This document shows, piece after piece, positions 1,717 to 64,000 of a stretch of 64,000 bases of DNA. The first letter of the stretch is position 1; every line of letters starts with the position of its first letter. Below the pieces are notes generated by a model. It was given only the letters and a program-made list of their open reading frames with translations. It made no database searches and was not told the DNA's origin. The stretch is from Arcobacter sp. CECT 8983 (lineage in GTDB: Bacteria > Campylobacterota > Campylobacteria > Campylobacterales > Arcobacteraceae): assembly GCF_004118855.1 (NCBI RefSeq), contig NZ_PDKF01000004.1, forward strand, positions 521,604 through 585,603, read 5' to 3'. Made by a program: the position numbers and the translations under genes.

Positions 1717-3252
1717 ATGTTTGAAATATTAATACTTATATTATTAACAATTATCTTAAGAATAATACCTAAATTTATAAAAAATAGAATTAATGGGGAT
1801 ACCTGGTATCATTTTGCAATGGCTGAATCTATTAGAAATAATAATTTCTCTATTCCAAAAAGAATAAAAGGATATTTACTACCTAATTTGTATGACTATC
1901 CTTATTTTTATCATTATTTATTATCTTTTCTTTCTTTAAAACAAAGAATAAAATATGAAAGAATTTATAGTGCAGTTTTAGATGCACTATTTGTAATATT
2001 AGCATATTTTAGCTTTATTTATTTATATGCTAAAATAGGTATTGATTCAAGTTTAGCCTTTTTTAGTGCTCTGCTACTTTCTATTTCTCCTACTTTATTA
2101 AAAGTTTCTATGGGACCAAGAGCATTTGATGCTACTCCAAGAGTTTTGGGAGAGCTTTTAGTTTTTGGATTTTTTATAGCAATGTTCTTTTTTTATCAAG
2201 AACAAAGTTACTTGGCATATGGTATTGGCGTATTCTTTGCTGCTTTATCTTTAATTACTAGTAAATTTAGTGCACAAGTAATATTTATTTTTTCTCTAAT
2301 TATTGGAAGTATTCTGAATTCATTAGTGATAGTTTTAGCACCAATTGCAGTATTTTTAATAGCTATTATAATTTCAAAAGAAAGATATATGACTATTTTA
2401 ATAGGACAATATCAGCATCTTAAAAGATTTGCTAAAATTACTAAAAATGAAGTAGAATTTATTTCATCTATTAATAGGTTTGAACAATATAAATTATTTT
2501 TTAAGTATCTTGTATCCTTTCAAATTAAAAAAGCATATTTAGTTTTTCATAGTAAATTAAGTTATTTAAACTTTATAATTAAAGATATAGAGGTTTTTTT
2601 AGTTTTAATACTAATGATATCTTTCAATATTGATACTTCAAATAATTCTCTTAGTTTTATATATGCTTGGTTTGCAGCTGGTTTTATGTCATTTATATTA
2701 ACAGGGAGTCATGCTTTTAAATTTATTGGTGAAGCTGATAGATATTTAGAATATGCTATTTTCCCTACATTTGTCTTTCTCACGATATATTTACAAAATA
2801 ATATATTATGGCTTTTTTTACCATTTACATTATTGTATATATATAATGTTTTTATTTATAGTTTTACTTCAAAATATAAATTAGAAGATTTATTCAAAGC
2901 TACTGAATTTATTAAAAACAATTATAGAAGAGAAGAATATAGATTATTAGGCTTAGTAGAAACAAATAGTTTTTATTATGGTGAAATTTTAACTGGGCTT
3001 AAGTGTATGGCAGCATCTGAATTCTCTACAGAAAATTGTGGAGAAGAACTTTGGAAGAAATACTATCAACCTATAATGCCAATTAGAACCAATGATTTTG
3101 AATGGATGTATCAAGAATTTGGTGTAAATATTATCCTTGCATATCAACCATATATTGATGAAATCAAAAAAACATATAATCATGAGTACAAATTTGATGG
3201 ATATAAAGAAGTTTATAATAAAAATGATTTTGTAGTTTATGAGAAGATATGA
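1717..3252 (+). CDS. Polytopic membrane protein, GT-C-like (STT3/PMT superfamily style)
   Basis: A 511-residue integral membrane protein with roughly ten hydrophobic segments in the first 390 residues and a soluble C-terminal part (about 395-511). The first loop after TM1 holds NGDTWYHFAMAE (about residues 26-37), which resembles the acidic D-x-W/Y-Y-H loop of GT-C enzymes that use polyprenyl-linked sugars (STT3, PglB, ArnT). This would fit a lipid-linked sugar transferase acting on the periplasmic side. The second acidic motif and the WWDYG signature of true oligosaccharyltransferases are not seen, so I do not call it PglB. A good Shine-Dalgarno (AAAAAAGGA, 1702-1710) precedes the ATG. Its end overlaps the flippase start by 4 bp. 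Function is a family-level inference. Confidence 0.6.
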   Translation: MFEILILILLTIILRIIPKFIKNRINGDTWYHFAMAESIRNNNFSIPKRIKGYLLPNLYDYPYFYHYLLSFLSLKQRIKYERIYSAVLDALFVILAYFSFIYLYAKIGIDSSLAFFSALLLSISPTLLKVSMGPRAFDATPRVLGELLVFGFFIAMFFFYQEQSYLAYGIGVFFAALSLITSKFSAQVIFIFSLIIGSILNSLVIVLAPIAVFLIAIIISKERYMTILIGQYQHLKRFAKITKNEVEFISSINRFEQYKLFFKYLVSFQIKKAYLVFHSKLSYLNFIIKDIEVFLVLILMISFNIDTSNNSLSFIYAWFAAGFMSFILTGSHAFKFIGEADRYLEYAIFPTFVFLTIYLQNNILWLFLPFTLLYIYNVFIYSFTSKYKLEDLFKATEFIKNNYRREEYRLLGLVETNSFYYGEILTGLKCMAASEFSTENCGEELWKKYYQPIMPIRTNDFEWMYQEFGVNIILAYQPYIDEIKKTYNHEYKFDGYKEVYNKNDFVVYEKI

Positions 3253-54066: not shown

Positions 54067-54104
54067 TCTATTTATAAAAGAAAAAAATTATTAAAGGAAA
54101 TAAA

Positions 54105-54701
54105 ATGTTAGTAACAAAAAAAGCTCCAGATTTTACATCAAAGGCAGTATTAGCTGATGGACAAATTGTAGAGGATTTTAATTTATATGAAAATATTGGT
54201 GAGAAAGGTGCAGTATTATTTTTCTGGCCTTTAGATTTTACGTTTGTTTGTCCATCTGAAATTATTGCTTTTTCAAAAAGAGTTAAAGATTTCAAAGAAA
54301 GAGGTATTCAAGTGATTGGTTGTTCTATTGATTCAGAATTTGCACACTTTGCTTGGAGAGAAACACCAGTTGAACAAGGTGGTATTGGAAGAGTTGAGTT
54401 CCCAATGGTTGCAGACTTAAGCAAACAAATTGCAAAAGATTATGATGTATTATTTAATGAAGAAGTTGCATTAAGAGGTTCATTCTTAATTGACAAAGAT
54501 GGAACAGTAAGACATGCAGTTATCAATGACTTACCATTAGGAAGAAATATTGATGAAATGATAAGAATGGTTGATACTATGATTTTTACAAATGAAAATG
54601 GTGAGGTTTGTCCTGCTGGATGGAACAAAGGTGATGAAGGTATGAAAGATACAACAGAAGGTGTAGCTGAATACTTAAGTAAAAACTCTGACAAGTTATA
54701 A
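54105..54701 (+). CDS. ahpC: 2-Cys peroxiredoxin (AhpC/TSA family)
   Basis: Reduces hydrogen peroxide and organic peroxides. Peroxidatic C49 lies in DFTFVCPSEI and the resolving C169 in GEVCPAGW, so it is a typical 2-Cys enzyme. WRETPVEQGGIGRVEFPMVADL contains the peroxidatic-site Arg region. The GGIG and C-terminal helix suggest a sensitive type that can be overoxidised, though the YF motif is not seen (the tail is AEYLSKNSDKL). Length 198 aa is standard for Campylobacterota AhpC. Followed by trxA, which probably reduces it, after 58 bp with an intervening hairpin. Confidence 0.95.
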   Translation: MLVTKKAPDFTSKAVLADGQIVEDFNLYENIGEKGAVLFFWPLDFTFVCPSEIIAFSKRVKDFKERGIQVIGCSIDSEFAHFAWRETPVEQGGIGRVEFPMVADLSKQIAKDYDVLFNEEVALRGSFLIDKDGTVRHAVINDLPLGRNIDEMIRMVDTMIFTNENGEVCPAGWNKGDEGMKDTTEGVAEYLSKNSDKL

Positions 54702-54718
54702 AATAATTTAAAGAATAA

Positions 54719-54746
54719 TAAGTCCTCTTTTAAAGGGGACTTTTCA
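54719..54746 (+). terminator. Hairpin between ahpC and trxA
   Basis: AAGTCCTCTTT pairs with AAAGGGGACTT (one G-T pair) and is followed by TTTT. It may terminate ahpC partially and let some transcription reach trxA. Confidence 0.7.
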
Positions 54747-54759
54747 AAAGGATAATATT

Positions 54760-55077
54760 ATGTCAAAATATATTGAAATAAATGAAAGTACTATGGAAGA
54801 TACAGTTAAAGAAGGTGTTTCTTTAGTAGATTTTTGGGCACCTTGGTGCGGACCTTGTAGAATGATTGCTCCAGCAATTGAACAGCTAGCAATAGATTAC
54901 GAAGGTAAAGCAAAAATTTGTAAAGTAAATACAGAAGAAGAACAAAATCTAACTGTAAAATATGGAATTAGATCTATTCCTACTATTCTTTTCTTTAAAG
55001 ATGGTGAAATTGTAGATCAACTAATTGGTGCAACTACTAAAGCTGCATTAGAAGAAAAACTAAACAAATATATCTAA
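54760..55077 (+). CDS. trxA: Thioredoxin
   Basis: Cytoplasmic disulfide reductase. Active site WCGPC with C30 and C33 in FWAPWCGPCRM; the cis-Pro lies in IRSIPTILFF (about 68-77). Length of 105 aa and the whole thioredoxin fold are standard. AAAAGGATAAT precedes the ATG. The adjacent peroxiredoxin is a likely substrate. Ends before a strong terminator. Confidence 0.97.
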   Translation: MSKYIEINESTMEDTVKEGVSLVDFWAPWCGPCRMIAPAIEQLAIDYEGKAKICKVNTEEEQNLTVKYGIRSIPTILFFKDGEIVDQLIGATTKAALEEKLNKYI

Positions 55078-55084
55078 ATAAAAT

Positions 55085-55109
55085 AAAAGGCAAGTTCTCT
55101 TGCCTTTTT
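55085..55109 (+). terminator. Rho-independent terminator after trxA
   Basis: AAAAGGCAAG pairs with CTTGCCTTTT around TTCT and ends in a T-run (55105-55109). Confidence 0.9.
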
Positions 55110-55164
55110 CTCTATATATTAAATACACAAAAAAACTATATAATTCTTTTTTATTGGAGAAATT

Positions 55165-55659
55165 ATGAAAGAAAAGATAAAAAAGTATTTAAAAGAGATT
55201 ATTGTTTTTGTTGTTGTATTAACTATTGCTGCAAATGTTTTTAGCTATTATCGCTCACTTGATTTAAATAAAGAAAAATTAGATTTAAAAACTATTACAT
55301 TATTAGATGGCAGTTTATATACTCTTCCTAATAATAAACCAGTACTTCTTCACTTTTGGGCTACTTGGTGTCCAACTTGTAAATTTGAAGCTTCAAATAT
55401 AGAAAAAATATCAAAAGATTATGAAGTGATTACGGTTGCAGTTCAATCAGGAACAAAAGAAGATATTCAAAATTATTTAAATGAACATAATCTAAGTTTT
55501 AAAGTTATCAATGATGAAGATAGCTTTTATTCAAAAAAATTCAATATTAAAGCCTTTCCTTCTACTTTTATATATGACAGTGAAAAAAGTTTAATGTTTA
55601 GTGAAGTGGGTTACACTTCAACTCTTGGATTATATGCAAGAATGTCCTTAGCAAAATAA
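55165..55659 (+). CDS. Membrane-anchored thioredoxin-like protein (TlpA/ScsD type)
   Basis: A 164-residue periplasmic thiol-disulfide protein tethered by one N-terminal helix (about 11-27). The thioredoxin domain has the active site WCPTC with C69 and C72 in HFWATWCPTCK, and a cis-Pro in KAFPSTFIYD. The CPTC dipeptide differs from the CGPC of the cytosolic thioredoxin and is common in ScsD and TlpA homologues that serve cytochrome c or disulfide metabolism. GTKEDIQNYLNEH resembles the insertion of this group. ATG with TTGGAGAA upstream. No DsbD partner is seen nearby. It follows trxA after a terminator, so it has its own transcript. Confidence 0.87.
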   Translation: MKEKIKKYLKEIIVFVVVLTIAANVFSYYRSLDLNKEKLDLKTITLLDGSLYTLPNNKPVLLHFWATWCPTCKFEASNIEKISKDYEVITVAVQSGTKEDIQNYLNEHNLSFKVINDEDSFYSKKFNIKAFPSTFIYDSEKSLMFSEVGYTSTLGLYARMSLAK

Positions 55660-55664
55660 GTTAC

Positions 55665-55701
55665 ATAATTATTACTAATCATAATTATTAGTAATAATTA
55701 T
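55665..55701. promoter_or_regulatory. Long AT-only inverted repeat upstream of the chemoreceptor gene
   Basis: ATAATTATTACTAAT (55665-55679) and ATTAGTAATAATTAT (55687-55701) are perfect 15-bp arms around CATAATT. There is no T-run. It may be an operator of the Fur/PerR kind, or a terminator of the thioredoxin-like gene. Confidence 0.45.
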
Positions 55702-55762
55702 AACAAAAAAGTAAAATTATAATTACTTATATAATTTAAAATTAGAATAAACATATTTATCC

Positions 55763-55768
55763 TATAAT
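55763..55768 (+). promoter_or_regulatory. -10 box upstream of the chemoreceptor gene
   Basis: TATAAT, 24 bp before the ATG at 55793; AAGGAGAAGG upstream of the ATG is the ribosome-binding site. Confidence 0.45.
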
Positions 55769-55792
55769 TCCAGCCAATTAAGGAGAAGGATA

Positions 55793-58345
55793 ATGTTTAA
55801 AAATATGAGTATTCAAAAGAAATTTTCTTTTGTAACTGTTCTTATAATATTTGTTGCATTAGTAATTAGTTTTTTGGTTTTTAATTACTATAAAAATATT
55901 ACAAAAAAAGAAGTTTATCAAAGTACATTAGATGAGTTAATTACTCACGTCACTGAGAATGTACAAGTGAAAAAAGATGTTGGGATTTCAAATGCTTTAT
56001 CAATAGCAAATGATGGAAGAATAAAACAAGCACTAAGAGAAAACAACAGAGAGTTAGCAATTCTTAGTTTAAAGTCAATCTCAAAAGAGATGAAGGACCA
56101 TACCCCTTTTAAAAACATCAAAGTTCATGTGCATACAAAAGATAACAAATCTTTTTTAAGAGCATGGAAACCAGAAAAATATGGTGATGATTTAAGCTCA
56201 TTTAGACATAGTGTTGTAAAAGTAAATAGTTCAAATGAACCAGTTAATACAATGGAACTAGGAAAAGCTGGACTTAGTTTAAGAACAGTGGTTCCTATAA
56301 AAGATGACAATGGAGAACATTTAGGTTCTTTAGAGTTTATTCAAGGTTTAAACTCTGTTGCTAAGAAGTTTGATAAAGACAAAGATGCTTTTTTACTTCT
56401 TATGGATTTAAATGTAAAAAAAGTTGAACTTTTTAATGATACAAACAAATTTAAAAACTATCTTATTTCTCAAAAATTTGTAAATAAAGATTTCTTAGCT
56501 GATGCAAGAACAATTGATTTAGAGTCTTTAAAAGCAAATGGTTTTTATAAAAGTGATAAATACTTTTATACAAGTAGTGAGGTAAAAGATTTTAGAGGTG
56601 AAACTTTAGGAATCTACTTAGTAGCAAGACCTTTAGCAATAGTTGAAAGTGCTATTATTAATGCAGAGAAGTTTATTAATACAGCAGTTATGATTTTAGT
56701 AATCTTTGGTTTAGTTGTTTTAGTCGCTATTTTATTTAATCTAAAAAATACAGTTATAAAACCATTGGGTATTTTATCTGATGCAATTGTTGATCTAACA
56801 AAAAGCAATGACCCAAGCGAAAAAATAAAACTAAATAGAAATGATGAATTAGGGATTTTAGCTAATAATTTTAATAAATATCTTTCAAATATAGAAGAGG
56901 GCTTAAAGCAAGATGCAAAAGTTATTGATGAAGCAATTGATATTGTAGCAAAAGCAAAAGATGGTTTCTATACATATAAAATCGATTCAAGTGCTTCAAA
57001 TAAACAAGTAGAACTATTAAAAGAGAATATTAATCAAATGTTAGAAATAACAAGGGATAATATTGTTATGGTAATCAATGCATTAATTGAGTTTGGTAAT
57101 GCACGTTATGATTATAAAATTTCTAGTGATAAAAGTGGGAATATCGGTTCTTTAGTAAAAGGGGCAAACGCTTTAGGTGATTCTATTTCAGAAGTTTTAT
57201 CTATGATTGATAAAACAGGTAGAAGTTTATCAGTAAACTCAAATGAACTTGCAGCAACTTCAGAACAACTTTCTGCTTCAGCAACACAACAAGCAGCCAG
57301 CTTAGAAGAGACAGCTGCTGCAGTTGAAGAGATTACTTCTACTATTGTTTCAACAGGACAAAGAGCAAAAGAGATGTCAGATATTGCAGAAGATTTAAAA
57401 ACTACAAGTGCAGAAGATGATAAGTTAGCTCATAGGACTGGAAAGTCTATGGAAGAGATTAATACTGCAACTAATGATATTGTTGAAGCAATTACAGTAA
57501 TTGATCAAATTGCTTTCCAAACAAATATTCTATCACTAAATGCAGCAGTTGAAGCAGCAACTGCTGGTGAAGCTGGAAAAGGTTTTGCAGTTGTTGCAGG
57601 TGAAGTTAGAAACTTAGCAAATAGATCTGCTGAAGCAGCAAAAGAGATTAAAGATTTAGTAATTTATGCTCAAGAAAAAACAAAAGAGGGTAAAGAAACA
57701 GCTGATAAAATGGTTGAAAGCTTCAAGTATCTAAATGAAAAAGTTTCACAAGTTACAACAAATGTAAATGAAGTAAGTTCTGCAACTAATGAACAAACAA
57801 GAGCAATGGAACAGATCAATTCTGTAATTACTCAATTAGATAAAGCTACACAAGAAAATGCAAATGCATCTGAAATAGTATCTCAAAAAGCTATGACTTT
57901 AAGTGAAATAGCTTCTAACTTAATGGCAGTTATAAATAGAACTCAATTTGATACTTCAAAGTCAAATCAAGTATGTGACGTAGATTTAGTATTTGATACA
58001 ACAAAACTAAAACTTGATCATATCTCATTTAAAGAAACAAACTTTAAAGAGCTTGGAAATGGCAAAACTGCAAAAGTTAAAACTCATACTGAATGTGCTT
58101 TAGGTAAGTGGATAGAGGAACATTCAAATGAGTCATATACTAACAACAAAGATTGGGATGAGTTCCTTATAGCTCACGAGAAAGTTCATAGCAATGTTCA
58201 AAAGTATATTGATATTGATGCAAAAGATAAAACAGATAAACAATTATTCTCTGTAGCAAGAGATATTGAAGATAATACGACTAAGGTATTTAATTATATT
58301 GATAAAATTAAAGAGCATAATTGTACAGATTTAAAAAACTCATAA
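55793..58345 (+). CDS. Methyl-accepting chemotaxis protein with Cache-like sensor and C-terminal CZB domain
   Basis: An 850-residue transmembrane chemoreceptor. TM1 (about 12-32), a periplasmic Cache-type sensor (33-290) with FLRAWKPEKYGDDLSSFRHSV and LGSLEF blocks, TM2 (295-317), then a HAMP region (318-372). A linker precedes the signalling coiled coil (about 480-720) whose tip reads DQIAFQTNILSLNAAVEAA, the conserved CheA/CheW contact. The end (about 735-840) is a CZB zinc-binding domain: FKETNFKELG, H-x-ECALGKWI and AHEKVHSN hold the His and Cys ligands. Zinc- or hypochlorous-acid-linked signalling is known for some CZB receptors. Monocistronic, with no che genes beside it. Confidence 0.93.
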   Translation: MFKNMSIQKKFSFVTVLIIFVALVISFLVFNYYKNITKKEVYQSTLDELITHVTENVQVKKDVGISNALSIANDGRIKQALRENNRELAILSLKSISKEMKDHTPFKNIKVHVHTKDNKSFLRAWKPEKYGDDLSSFRHSVVKVNSSNEPVNTMELGKAGLSLRTVVPIKDDNGEHLGSLEFIQGLNSVAKKFDKDKDAFLLLMDLNVKKVELFNDTNKFKNYLISQKFVNKDFLADARTIDLESLKANGFYKSDKYFYTSSEVKDFRGETLGIYLVARPLAIVESAIINAEKFINTAVMILVIFGLVVLVAILFNLKNTVIKPLGILSDAIVDLTKSNDPSEKIKLNRNDELGILANNFNKYLSNIEEGLKQDAKVIDEAIDIVAKAKDGFYTYKIDSSASNKQVELLKENINQMLEITRDNIVMVINALIEFGNARYDYKISSDKSGNIGSLVKGANALGDSISEVLSMIDKTGRSLSVNSNELAATSEQLSASATQQAASLEETAAAVEEITSTIVSTGQRAKEMSDIAEDLKTTSAEDDKLAHRTGKSMEEINTATNDIVEAITVIDQIAFQTNILSLNAAVEAATAGEAGKGFAVVAGEVRNLANRSAEAAKEIKDLVIYAQEKTKEGKETADKMVESFKYLNEKVSQVTTNVNEVSSATNEQTRAMEQINSVITQLDKATQENANASEIVSQKAMTLSEIASNLMAVINRTQFDTSKSNQVCDVDLVFDTTKLKLDHISFKETNFKELGNGKTAKVKTHTECALGKWIEEHSNESYTNNKDWDEFLIAHEKVHSNVQKYIDIDAKDKTDKQLFSVARDIEDNTTKVFNYIDKIKEHNCTDLKNS

Positions 58346-61943: not shown

Positions 61944-62021
61944 AATTATTACTTGTTGCATTTAGTTATATTTAAGAGTGTAAGTTATAAAATGAATTAT
62001 ATACTGATAAAGGAGTTTATT

Positions 62022-62378
62022 ATGAAACTTCAAGGAATTACAATTGATTTTTATGATAAAAGAACATGTGGTCTTTTACCAGACCTTTGTGCCCAATGGG
62101 ATATTCGTTATGATGAGCTAGAAGACAATGATGAGCTTATATCATATTGGGAAAATAGTTTAGAAAATGTTTTATCTAAAACTGATAAAGTAGTTAGTGG
62201 AACTATAGATGGAAAATCTATTTTATATTCTGCTGATAAAGAAGCAATAAAAATAATACAAGATGAGTTTAAAGAGTTAGAATTATTAACTATTGATTAT
62301 GATGATATTACAAAATGTGATCACTGTTTAAAACATGATTATATTGCTGATGAAAATAAACTTGTAGAAGCTAATTAA
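62022..62378 (+). CDS. Small Cys-containing protein of unknown function
   Basis: A 118-residue protein that I do not recognise. Cys residues form two groups: TCGLLPDLCAQ (19 and 26 or so) and a C-terminal CDHC pair in KCDHCLKHDYIADE, which could bind a metal or form disulfides. The rest is acidic (ELEDNDELISYWENSLEN). I use the ATG at 62022 because AAAGGAG at 62009-62015 is well placed; longer frames opening at 61953 lack a good site. It lies just after the kinase gene and ends within a palindromic terminator facing the cyclase gene. Confidence 0.65.
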   Translation: MKLQGITIDFYDKRTCGLLPDLCAQWDIRYDELEDNDELISYWENSLENVLSKTDKVVSGTIDGKSILYSADKEAIKIIQDEFKELELLTIDYDDITKCDHCLKHDYIADENKLVEAN

Positions 62379-62397: not shown

Positions 62398-64000
62398 TTA
62401 AAACAAGTCAACACTTGAAACTTGTTCTTCTTTAAATCTAACAACTCTATCTCTACCACTATTTTTAGCTTCATATAAAGCAATATCAGCATTTTTAATA
62501 ATATTTTCAAATGATGTTGAATCTTCAGGATACATTGAAAGACCTATACTAACAGTTTTCTTCAATTTATTACCTGCGTAAACATCTATTTCATTTTCTC
62601 TTACTTTGTCACCAATCTTTTTAGCAACACTCATTGCAGCTTCATCTGAGTTTACACCCATTAATAAAATCATAAACTCTTCACCACCATATCTGATGAT
62701 AATATCAGATTCTCTAACTGTTTCATTTAAAATTCGTGCAAGTTCTTTAAGTACTTTATCTCCAATATCATGACCATACTCATCATTAACAGCTTTAAAG
62801 TGATCCATATCAAGCATAAGTAATGCAACATTTGTTCCATCTCTTTTAATTTGTGGTAACATTTTTTTAGTATATTCTTCTAAGAATTTTCTATTATATA
62901 GTCCAGTTAATCCATCTGTAAATGCAGATTCTTGTAAAGCATTCATTAAAAGTTTAACTTCAATAGAAGGAACTGATTCTTTTAAATAACTTTTTATGAA
63001 TACAGTTTTTTCTTTTAATTCTTCAAGTTCTTCCTGTGTATCACAAACGCAGTTAATAATTAAATATAGATTTTGTGTAATATCTACATTAAAGCAGTAG
63101 TATAATTTGTCACTATCAAAAAGAGGACAAGTATTATGAAACTGTACTGACATAACATCACTTTTTGTTCTAGCTGCTCTACAAGCTTCTGGATTAGTTT
63201 TTAAAGTTTCTTCACAATATAATGATTTTCCACACTGTTTCATTGTAGTCATCTTATATTTTTTCATATCAATTTCCACAAAACTAAAGTTTTTCAATTT
63301 AAACTTGTTTTGTAGTACTTCTGCTAATCTATCATAAATCTCTTCTTTAGTGTTATCTAATTCAATCTGCTTTTTAAACTGATAAAGGTTTGATAAATTA
63401 TCAATAATCTCTTTTGAGTCTTTAAGTGGGTTTCTATTTTTGTTTGAAGCTTTAAATCCAACAAAGCCTTGAAGTTTTTTATCAATATCAACAGCGGTAT
63501 CTTTAAAAGATTGGATTAAATTATTATAATCTTCTGTAATGTTAATCATTTCAGCAGATAATCCAACAGGAGGAACTATCCCTTTAAATCTTCCATGTGT
63601 AGCTTGATTAATATTAATTTTGAACTTATCAAATAGTCTTAAATATGGACTAATTAATCTTCTACTAACTAAAATAAATAGAATAATTGTTGTTAAGATT
63701 AAAACAGTAATAACATATATAGATTCTATACCTATTTCTTTTATAGTACTAATATCTAGTACAATTGAAACTGCACCTAAAGTTGTACCTTGATCTACTT
63801 GATGACACTTTAAACAATCTATTCCTTTTTCTGCAACTGCATTATATGGAATAGTAACCCTAACAGTAGTACTTGTTATCTCTTCATCAATTTGATATTG
63901 CATTCTTCCTGTTGAAAGTGCTTTTTTATCAAAATCATCCCTTGGAGGATTTTTTAAGTGAGAAGAAGGAAACTGCTCATTAACAAATTTACTTCTTACA
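62398..64000 (-). CDS. Diguanylate cyclase with periplasmic CxxCH haem-type motif (N-terminus beyond window)
   Basis: The frame is open to the window edge, so the N-terminus is missing. The visible part starts in an extracytoplasmic sensor containing C-L-K-C-H at 63802-63816, a c-type haem attachment motif as in DUF3365/Tll0287-like sensors. One membrane helix follows (about 63650-63720), a HAMP-like segment, then a GAF-like region with Cys residues (MKQCGKSLYC, NPEACRAAR, NTCPLFDSDKLYYC) that could bind an Fe-S cluster or act as redox switch. The C-terminal GGDEF domain reads FTDGLTGLYNRKF, LLMLDMDHFKAVNDEYGHD and the signature GGEEF, so it should make cyclic di-GMP. An ATG at 63903 is internal to the open frame. 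Confidence 0.88.
   Translation of the reverse strand, partial: VRSKFVNEQFPSSHLKNPPRDDFDKKALSTGRMQYQIDEEITSTTVRVTIPYNAVAEKGIDCLKCHQVDQGTTLGAVSIVLDISTIKEIGIESIYVITVLILTTIILFILVSRRLISPYLRLFDKFKININQATHGRFKGIVPPVGLSAEMINITEDYNNLIQSFKDTAVDIDKKLQGFVGFKASNKNRNPLKDSKEIIDNLSNLYQFKKQIELDNTKEEIYDRLAEVLQNKFKLKNFSFVEIDMKKYKMTTMKQCGKSLYCEETLKTNPEACRAARTKSDVMSVQFHNTCPLFDSDKLYYCFNVDITQNLYLIINCVCDTQEELEELKEKTVFIKSYLKESVPSIEVKLLMNALQESAFTDGLTGLYNRKFLEEYTKKMLPQIKRDGTNVALLMLDMDHFKAVNDEYGHDIGDKVLKELARILNETVRESDIIIRYGGEEFMILLMGVNSDEAAMSVAKKIGDKVRENEIDVYAGNKLKKTVSIGLSMYPEDSTSFENIIKNADIALYEAKNSGRDRVVRFKEEQVSSVDLF

Follow-up and report, generated by a model that had tools for sequence, protein, structure and literature searches.

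The right-hand end of a 64,000-nucleotide stretch of the genome of Arcobacter sp. CECT 8983 (contig NZ_PDKF01000004.1, positions 521,604 to 585,603; the window) carries the 3' part of a gene for a predicted diguanylate cyclase, whose sensory portion is our subject here. The reading frame lies on the minus strand, ends with a stop codon at window positions 62398-62400 and extends past the right edge of the window. A preliminary description of this DNA had asked for the full gene, which was retrieved from the assembly sequence (L009:4002-5846:-, corresponding to G000:C4:584001-585845); 242 bases lie beyond the window, comprising codons 1-80 and two bases of codon 81. The product of 614 amino acids is laid out as a first transmembrane segment (TM1), a periplasmic domain with the motif CLKCH, a second transmembrane segment (TM2), a HAMP-like linker, a Cys-rich domain and a GGDEF domain (Table 1). 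By hydropathy, the hydrophobic segments are residues 4-29 and 169-199, and seven Cys residues (337, 343, 354, 372, 383, 398, and 400) lie between TM2 and GGDEF. Since CLKCH is found between the two membrane helices, it should be periplasmic and the seven Cys cytoplasmic, in agreement with the preliminary description, which had placed CLKCH in an extracytoplasmic part and counted six or more Cys ahead of GGDEF.

Table 1. Features of the focal gene and its product, with positions in the window.
Feature	Residues	Window positions	Strand	Basis and remarks
Diguanylate cyclase gene (predicted), 3' part	last base of codon 81 to codon 614, and stop	62398..64000	-	Start codon 242 bases past window edge; Pfam GGDEF
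Putative periplasmic sCache_heme-type sensor, part inside window	to about 168	63739..64000	-	AlphaFold2 model; profile match to 3b42/3b47; Met55 outside window
CLKCH, predicted c-haem attachment motif with proximal His147	143-147	63802..63816	-	Kept in 120/120 relatives and 66/66 sensors
TM2	169-199	63646..63738	-	Hydropathy; AlphaFold2 helix 165-215
HAMP-like helical linker	200-261	63460..63645	-	AlphaFold2 helices
Cys4-GAF domain	272-434	62941..63429	-	AlphaFold2 model; GAF folds in Foldseek and VIA; Pfam GAF matches distant members only
Cys343, invariant	343	63214..63216	-	Conserved column
Cys354, invariant, followed by invariant Arg355	354	63181..63183	-	Conserved column
Cys372, invariant	372	63127..63129	-	Conserved column
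Cys383, invariant, in model strand 380-387	383	63094..63096	-	Conserved column and AlphaFold2 model
GGDEF catalytic domain	440-599	62446..62925	-	Pfam GGDEF, E 4.2e-49
RESD, RxxD product-inhibition site (I-site) pattern	510-513	62704..62715	-	Sequence pattern
GGEEF active-site motif	519-523	62674..62688	-	Intact

Taken singly, the focal protein reveals only its output domain. GGDEF alone exceeds the Pfam cut-off (four families at E up to 10), and all of its matches to PDB sequences fall on GGDEF (E up to 1e-3), so that aligned relatives were needed to recognise the other domains. The same genome encodes two further full-length paralogues, 36 and 38% identical to the focal protein, in each of which CxxCH and the conserved Cys are present. 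A Cys-region profile built from these three proteins gave matches, a few of them weak, in 131 of the 397 sampled genomes in the window's phylum, spread over 41 of 68 genera, and a sensor profile matched 132 of 298 genomes, in 41 of 58 genera, many of these being other proteins with weaker scores. The profile searches covered the window's phylum and that of Hydrogenobaculum, which we take to be Aquificota. Named relatives come from Arcobacter, Aliarcobacter, Poseidonibacter, Halarcobacter, Sulfurimonas and Sulfuricurvum, the phylum being read as Campylobacterota, and from one Hydrogenobaculum record. The nearest (L082) is a metagenome-assembled genome labelled Campylobacteraceae HF-Din13, whose protein is 95% identical over its length. 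A plasmid search gave one distant match (NZ_AP026896.1, 27.8% identity over residues 7-167), and a phage search gave none.

Genome contigs were scanned for relatives with two Cys-free peptide patterns, and 80 of the 179 confirmed loci were kept. Selection by match to both domain profiles left 124 unique proteins, from which came the 120 full-length relatives (>550 amino acids), all but one ending in a stop codon without X. From these 119, 52 were picked at <72% identity and 49 entered the alignment used for modelling; omitted from it were the three most divergent (one each of L155, L139 and L161), whose Cys domains form part of a set of 62 diverse copies of that domain, drawn from 74 stretches of which the other 12 were short pieces. 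With the alignment of 49 sequences, AlphaFold2 modelled the whole protein with a predicted local distance difference test score (pLDDT) of 86.9 and a predicted template modelling score (pTM) of 0.58. A Pfam HAMP match was weak and confined to two of the 49 members (best E 0.0017), the focal protein not being one of them. The best 50 matches in a fold search with the full model were nearly all GGDEF proteins, and the GAF domain was therefore modelled alone.

The motif CxxCH is present in all 120 aligned full-length relatives and in each of 66 sensors. For this motif and for the cytoplasmic Cys, conservation is much stronger evidence than shuffle statistics, in which CxxCH arose in 0.165% of 20,000 shuffles of the focal protein and five Cys within some 50 residues in 82 of 5,000. 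When a profile of the 66 sensors was compared with PDB sequences, 3b42 (GSU0935) ranked first (E 2e-5) and 3b47 (GSU0582) third (E 0.013), with an isomerase-related chain between them (E 0.0045). GSU0935 and GSU0582 are c-haem chemoreceptor domains of solved structure. In the profile alignment, a family Met (Met55 in the focal protein) pairs with residue 26 of the 3b42 chain, and CxxCH pairs with chain residues 106-110; as the latter are Cys140-His144 in the numbering of PMC8396549, residue 26 is Met60. In GSU0935, the haem was described as ligated by His144 and Met60 in one subunit, with the Met lost upon oxidation and with nitric oxide (NO) or carbon monoxide (CO) taking its place in the reduced form (PMC8396549). 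The Met55 column holds Met in 65 of the 66 sensors and Ile in one.

The modelled sensor has a strand at residues 125-134, a short helix at 143-147 and a further strand at 154-163. This order agrees, as compared by description, with the single-Cache layout of the sCache_heme family, in which CxxCH occupies an insert between β3 and β4 (PMC12889525, in the parts covered). That 2026 preprint describes the family as NO-binding and names Campylobacterota and GGDEF fusions in general; one member with transmembrane helices and HAMP bound NO tightly and formed no stable O2 complex, and no diguanylate cyclase appears among the members tested in the parts of the preprint covered. At E up to 1, Pfam PF21563 matched 15 of the 66 sensors (best 7.1e-11) and PF11845 matched 18 (best 5.3e-5). 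Because the profile matches GSU0935 and Met55 aligns with Met60, we consider the sensor to be a divergent sCache_heme domain. An extracytoplasmic c-type haem sensor in the focal protein, as the preliminary description had proposed, is thus a well-supported prediction, with the positions of both the proximal His and the distal Met conserved. Haem attachment requires a cytochrome c assembly protein, and a CcsBA-like one (PF01578 4.3e-39, PF05140 2.9e-26) is encoded in the same genome.

On the cytoplasmic side, columns 343, 354, 372 and 383 hold Cys in 119, 120, 120 and 120 of the 120 full-length relatives, respectively. The earlier suggestion that the Cys-rich segment is meaningful therefore holds for these four and fails for Cys 337, 398 and 400, which lie outside the conserved columns; a set of seven Cys ligands was rejected accordingly. 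In the 62 diverse copies, with identity to the focal domain down to 18%, only Asp296, Cys343, Cys354, Arg355, Cys372 and Cys383 are invariant. All four Cys columns are filled in 163 of 164 domain rows aligned to the profile, a set that may contain near copies, and the exception (L206) has a Cys a few places downstream, which by eye reads as an alignment shift. Over the 164 rows, the spacings are x5-11 (x10 in 125), x17-18 (x17 in 158) and x10-20. The invariance of the four supports the view that these cytoplasmic Cys matter, and they probably form a metal site, with iron-sulphur (Fe-S) as the predicted cofactor. The organisms concerned are microaerobic and anaerobic, which is the context for the Fe-S assignment.

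The domain that holds these Cys was modelled as a GAF fold (residues 275-434, pLDDT 92.8, pTM 0.86). Its best Foldseek match is the GAF domain of Lcd1 (E 3.9e-5), with which VIA aligned 148 residues at a Z of 13.6 and a root-mean-square deviation of 3.0; the best 50 VIA matches, mostly GAF or GAF-like, span Z 11.3-13.6 over 133-154 residues. Sequence searches were less telling, the best PDB sequence match of the Cys region having an E of 1.2. Pfam GAF gave no match in the focal protein at E up to 10 and is absent from the 25 families listed for the 62 members. In a distant member (L205), PF01590 matches residues 528-646 (E 6.5e-7) within the span of the Cys4 profile (503-654), so that sequence and fold agree; in L202 the same family falls just under the cut-off (E 2e-4). 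The Cys region, which is modelled as a GAF fold but goes unrecognised by Pfam in the focal protein, is here called Cys4-GAF.

Beyond what the preliminary description had envisaged, Cys4-GAF is a separate module that is found without the haem sensor elsewhere. In five complete Campylobacterota proteins (family f5, L162-L166), Cys4-GAF-GGDEF is preceded by a shorter N-terminal part that lacks CxxCH. For a sixth (L167), no ATG is present upstream of the GAF and the N-terminal end was not seen; for this family nine genomes were matched by the Cys-region profile and six retrieved. Four proteins that showed the Cys domain alone in a first survey were all cut by contig ends. In the Hydrogenobaculum phylum, the Cys-region profile matches 57 of 136 genomes. 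Among the 20 best loci there, 18 have a CxxCH sensor and two are truncated at contig ends; the weaker matches L202-L207 and L211 lack CxxCH (the start of L203 is missing), and so does L208. Three of these (L202, L204 and L205) are CBS-PAS-GGDEF proteins by Pfam, and the other four of L202-L207 and L211 by eye. As Cys4-GAF precedes GGDEF without a haem sensor in both the f5 and the CBS-PAS proteins, it is an independent module. Conversely, the haem sensor occurs without Cys4-GAF in front of other outputs identified by Pfam, namely HD (L168, L169), MCP (L172, L176) and GGDEF-EAL (L174, L175). In a tree of GAF-GGDEF stretches (82 of 161, once near copies and truncated rows had been taken out), each class forms one group: Campylobacterota with haem (66 rows, support 93/87) and without it (5 rows, 100/98), Aquificota with haem (5 rows, 100/97), and the CBS-PAS proteins (5 rows, 100/100). 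The tree is unrooted, so haem gain and haem loss cannot be told apart from it.

The output domain is that of a predicted diguanylate cyclase. The GGEEF motif, which the preliminary description had judged intact, is so in the complete protein, and GGEEF or GGDEF is found by pattern in 117 of the 120 full-length relatives; the RxxD I-site is found by pattern in 89 of 119. Of the other 30 relatives, 28 (including the paralogue L011 of the same genome) keep GGEEF and have no RxxD at the set spacing, and product inhibition may therefore be lost in these. A divergent pair of the family, L171:2172-2624 and an adjoining minus-strand gene, includes one member with RLSGDEF in place of GGEEF, the haem motif and four Cys being intact. 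The focal C-terminus (window 62401-62412) shares a [VI]DLF ending with 11 of 119 relatives, which presumably resembles a sliding-clamp-binding motif. Elsewhere in the genome (G000:C24, about 54073-55967; L013:1282-2193 and 2202-3176), two small cyclase-like proteins are encoded in tandem. Their motifs are degenerate (RIDSDEF and RLSGDEF) and their ends, (I/V)DLF, are like that of the focal protein; they have no transmembrane haem part and, in place of the four-Cys pattern, two scattered Cys each, and their match to the focal protein begins only inside the GAF. A similar small protein (DGEQF) is encoded 3' of a focal-type gene in L090. It is possible that these small proteins serve as cyclic di-GMP receptors or partners.

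We consider it on balance probable that the focal protein is a two-input membrane diguanylate cyclase, receiving signals from a periplasmic c-type haem that responds to redox state or NO and from a cytoplasmic Cys4 metal site, probably Fe-S. Outside, a c-type haem would be attached to Cys143 and Cys146, with His147 as the proximal ligand and Met55, by alignment to His144 and Met60 of GSU0935, as the distal one. Oxidation of the haem, or binding of NO or CO, would displace Met55, and the shift could be relayed via the long helices, TM2 and the HAMP-like linker to the GAF domain and the helix before GGDEF. Inside, the GAF domain would bind a metal, most likely an Fe-S cluster, through its four invariant Cys. 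Positioned directly on the helix running into GGDEF, it would add a cytoplasmic input, such that the cyclase would be gated by the state of the periplasmic haem together with that of the Cys4 site. The sequence, the domain layout, the invariant residues, the class of fold and the existence of either sensor apart from the other are what the analysis shows directly. Redox or gas sensing by the Cys and the tuning of the cyclase by it, both put forward in the preliminary description, we infer, along with the loading of haem and metal, the nature of the signal (redox and/or NO), the direction in which it regulates the enzyme, and cyclase activity itself. A more ambitious version of this proposal, which we offer tentatively, is that Cys4-GAF represents a new, GGDEF-dedicated family of GAF sensors that bind Fe-S, and that the protein is a trans-membrane coincidence detector which would compare periplasmic (c-haem) with cytoplasmic (Fe-S) redox or NO conditions before commitment to cyclic di-GMP.

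Several points weigh against the two-input reading. The one sensor with Ile for the distal Met (L083) belongs to a relative of the focal clade, and the focal sensor alone stays below the Pfam cut-off (PF21563, Mcp40H-20_sensor, E 0.023), its membership coming through the family profile. Since CxxCH and the Cys are part of the profiles used to collect the relatives, some of the invariance arises by selection. The Cys4 site requires no CxxC pair, its first spacing (5-11) and its last (10-20) are variable, and the Cys would be equally invariant with Zn or with plain thiol chemistry, the Fe-S assignment being a prediction.

It could thus be that the haem domain is the sole sensor and that the four Cys hold a structural Zn, or another fixed metal knot, which stabilises the GAF as a relay between the HAMP-like helices and GGDEF. 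This would suit four invariant, irregularly spaced Cys equally well, and Zn-binding regulatory domains exist in cyclases, as in the CZB domain of DgcZ. However, Cys4-GAF persists in proteins without the haem sensor, where it is possibly the sensor itself, and the two C24 cyclase-like relatives of the same genome lack the Cys4 pattern, with the caveat already given on where their match starts. Because of these two observations a sensing role is favoured for the Cys4 site, and we regard a structural one as unlikely.

A metal-free thiol-disulfide switch, like that of the redox-active GAF enzyme free-methionine-R-sulfoxide reductase (fRMsr, MsrC), seems to us improbable. The closest folds include fRMsr structures (3mmh, Z 13.5; 1vhm, presumably the E. 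coli enzyme, Z 13.6), but other GAF structures reach the same Z. The Cys of E. coli MsrC (C-x9-C-x23-C) lie in the same region and, by eye, in the same order as C343-x10-C354-x17-C372; yet MsrC has three Cys against the four kept here, and a profile comparison by hhalign against the single E. coli sequence found nothing (probability 0.2). Homology of Cys4-GAF to fRMsr, which in addition is an enzyme, was rejected on that result. Finally, that the haem is only a fold anchor or electron carrier and that an ordinary small ligand occupies the GAF, to which the cyclic AMP complex of the nearest Foldseek match (Lcd1) might point, is very improbable given that the sensor is fused to signalling outputs, that one tested member of such architecture binds NO tightly, that Met occupies the distal-ligand position at which the GSU0935 ligand switches with redox state, and that the GAF contains four invariant Cys.

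The two-input reading can be set beside known systems. With the sCache_heme, DUF3365 or Tll0287-like and Mcp40H-20 domains (GSU0582, GSU0935), the focal sensor has in common a periplasmic single domain between two transmembrane segments, CxxCH in the β3-β4 insert, a proximal His and a distal Met at the position of GSU0935 Met60; it differs in being too divergent for a Pfam call and in an output that is GGDEF via Cys4-GAF. Leptospira Lcd1 (PDB 5w10) has the closest GAF fold by Foldseek, and Pseudomonas DcsBis (4zmu) is the second match of the whole focal model, over 344 columns. In both, presumably, the GAF is placed before GGDEF, and we know of no transmembrane haem sensor and no such Cys set in either. 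Cytoplasmic sensing of O2, NO or redox through a Cys-bound or iron cofactor is found in NreB (PAS, [4Fe-4S]), AirS ([2Fe-2S], C-X7-C-X-C-X17-C) and NorR (GAF, mononuclear iron), as described in PMC4601167; these differ from the focal protein, in which the metal is only predicted, by a kinase or transcription-factor output and another ligand pattern.

The focal gene lies behind trmB-ftsE-ftsX-envC (flank L009:5968-9922), as it does in the close relatives L082, L083 and L115, and envC adjoins a focal-type gene in L046 and L047. None of this group was seen in the flanks examined of L084-L087, L089 and L090. The gene names were given by eye from translations, Pfam supporting the ABC and M23 members and not FtsX. 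A scan of the interval between envC and the focal gene, in which 0.3 terminator-like sites would be expected by chance, found none. It is possible that this neighbourhood reflects a link of cyclic di-GMP to division (cell-wall splitting). Convergent with the focal gene is an open reading frame of 141 amino acids (window 61953-62378), kept in L082 at 93% and without a Pfam match at E 0.01. Further away, window positions 55793-58345 encode a chemoreceptor with dCache_3, an MCP signal domain and a C-terminal CZB zinc-binding domain.

A literature search on cyclases with c-type heme, Fe-S or redox sensing and Campylobacterota GGDEF proteins, with subscription journals mostly outside its scope, returned no work on this protein family as judged by title and start of abstract. 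GGDEF proteins with a haem sensor were already known; as far as that search shows, the novelty lies in Cys4-GAF and in the combination of two conserved cofactor-type sites. Many Campylobacterota and Aquificota live at redox boundaries, and little is known of how respiration is linked to cyclic di-GMP in either phylum. As both sites are kept in related bacteria, the enzyme probably links a switch of lifestyle to redox or nitric oxide conditions. Cys4-GAF would represent a type of sensor so far unrecognised by Pfam in these cyclases, and the matches of its profile in 131 of 397 sampled genomes of the phylum, together with the two conserved cofactor-type sites of full-length members, offer a concrete and testable link between respiration and cyclic di-GMP.
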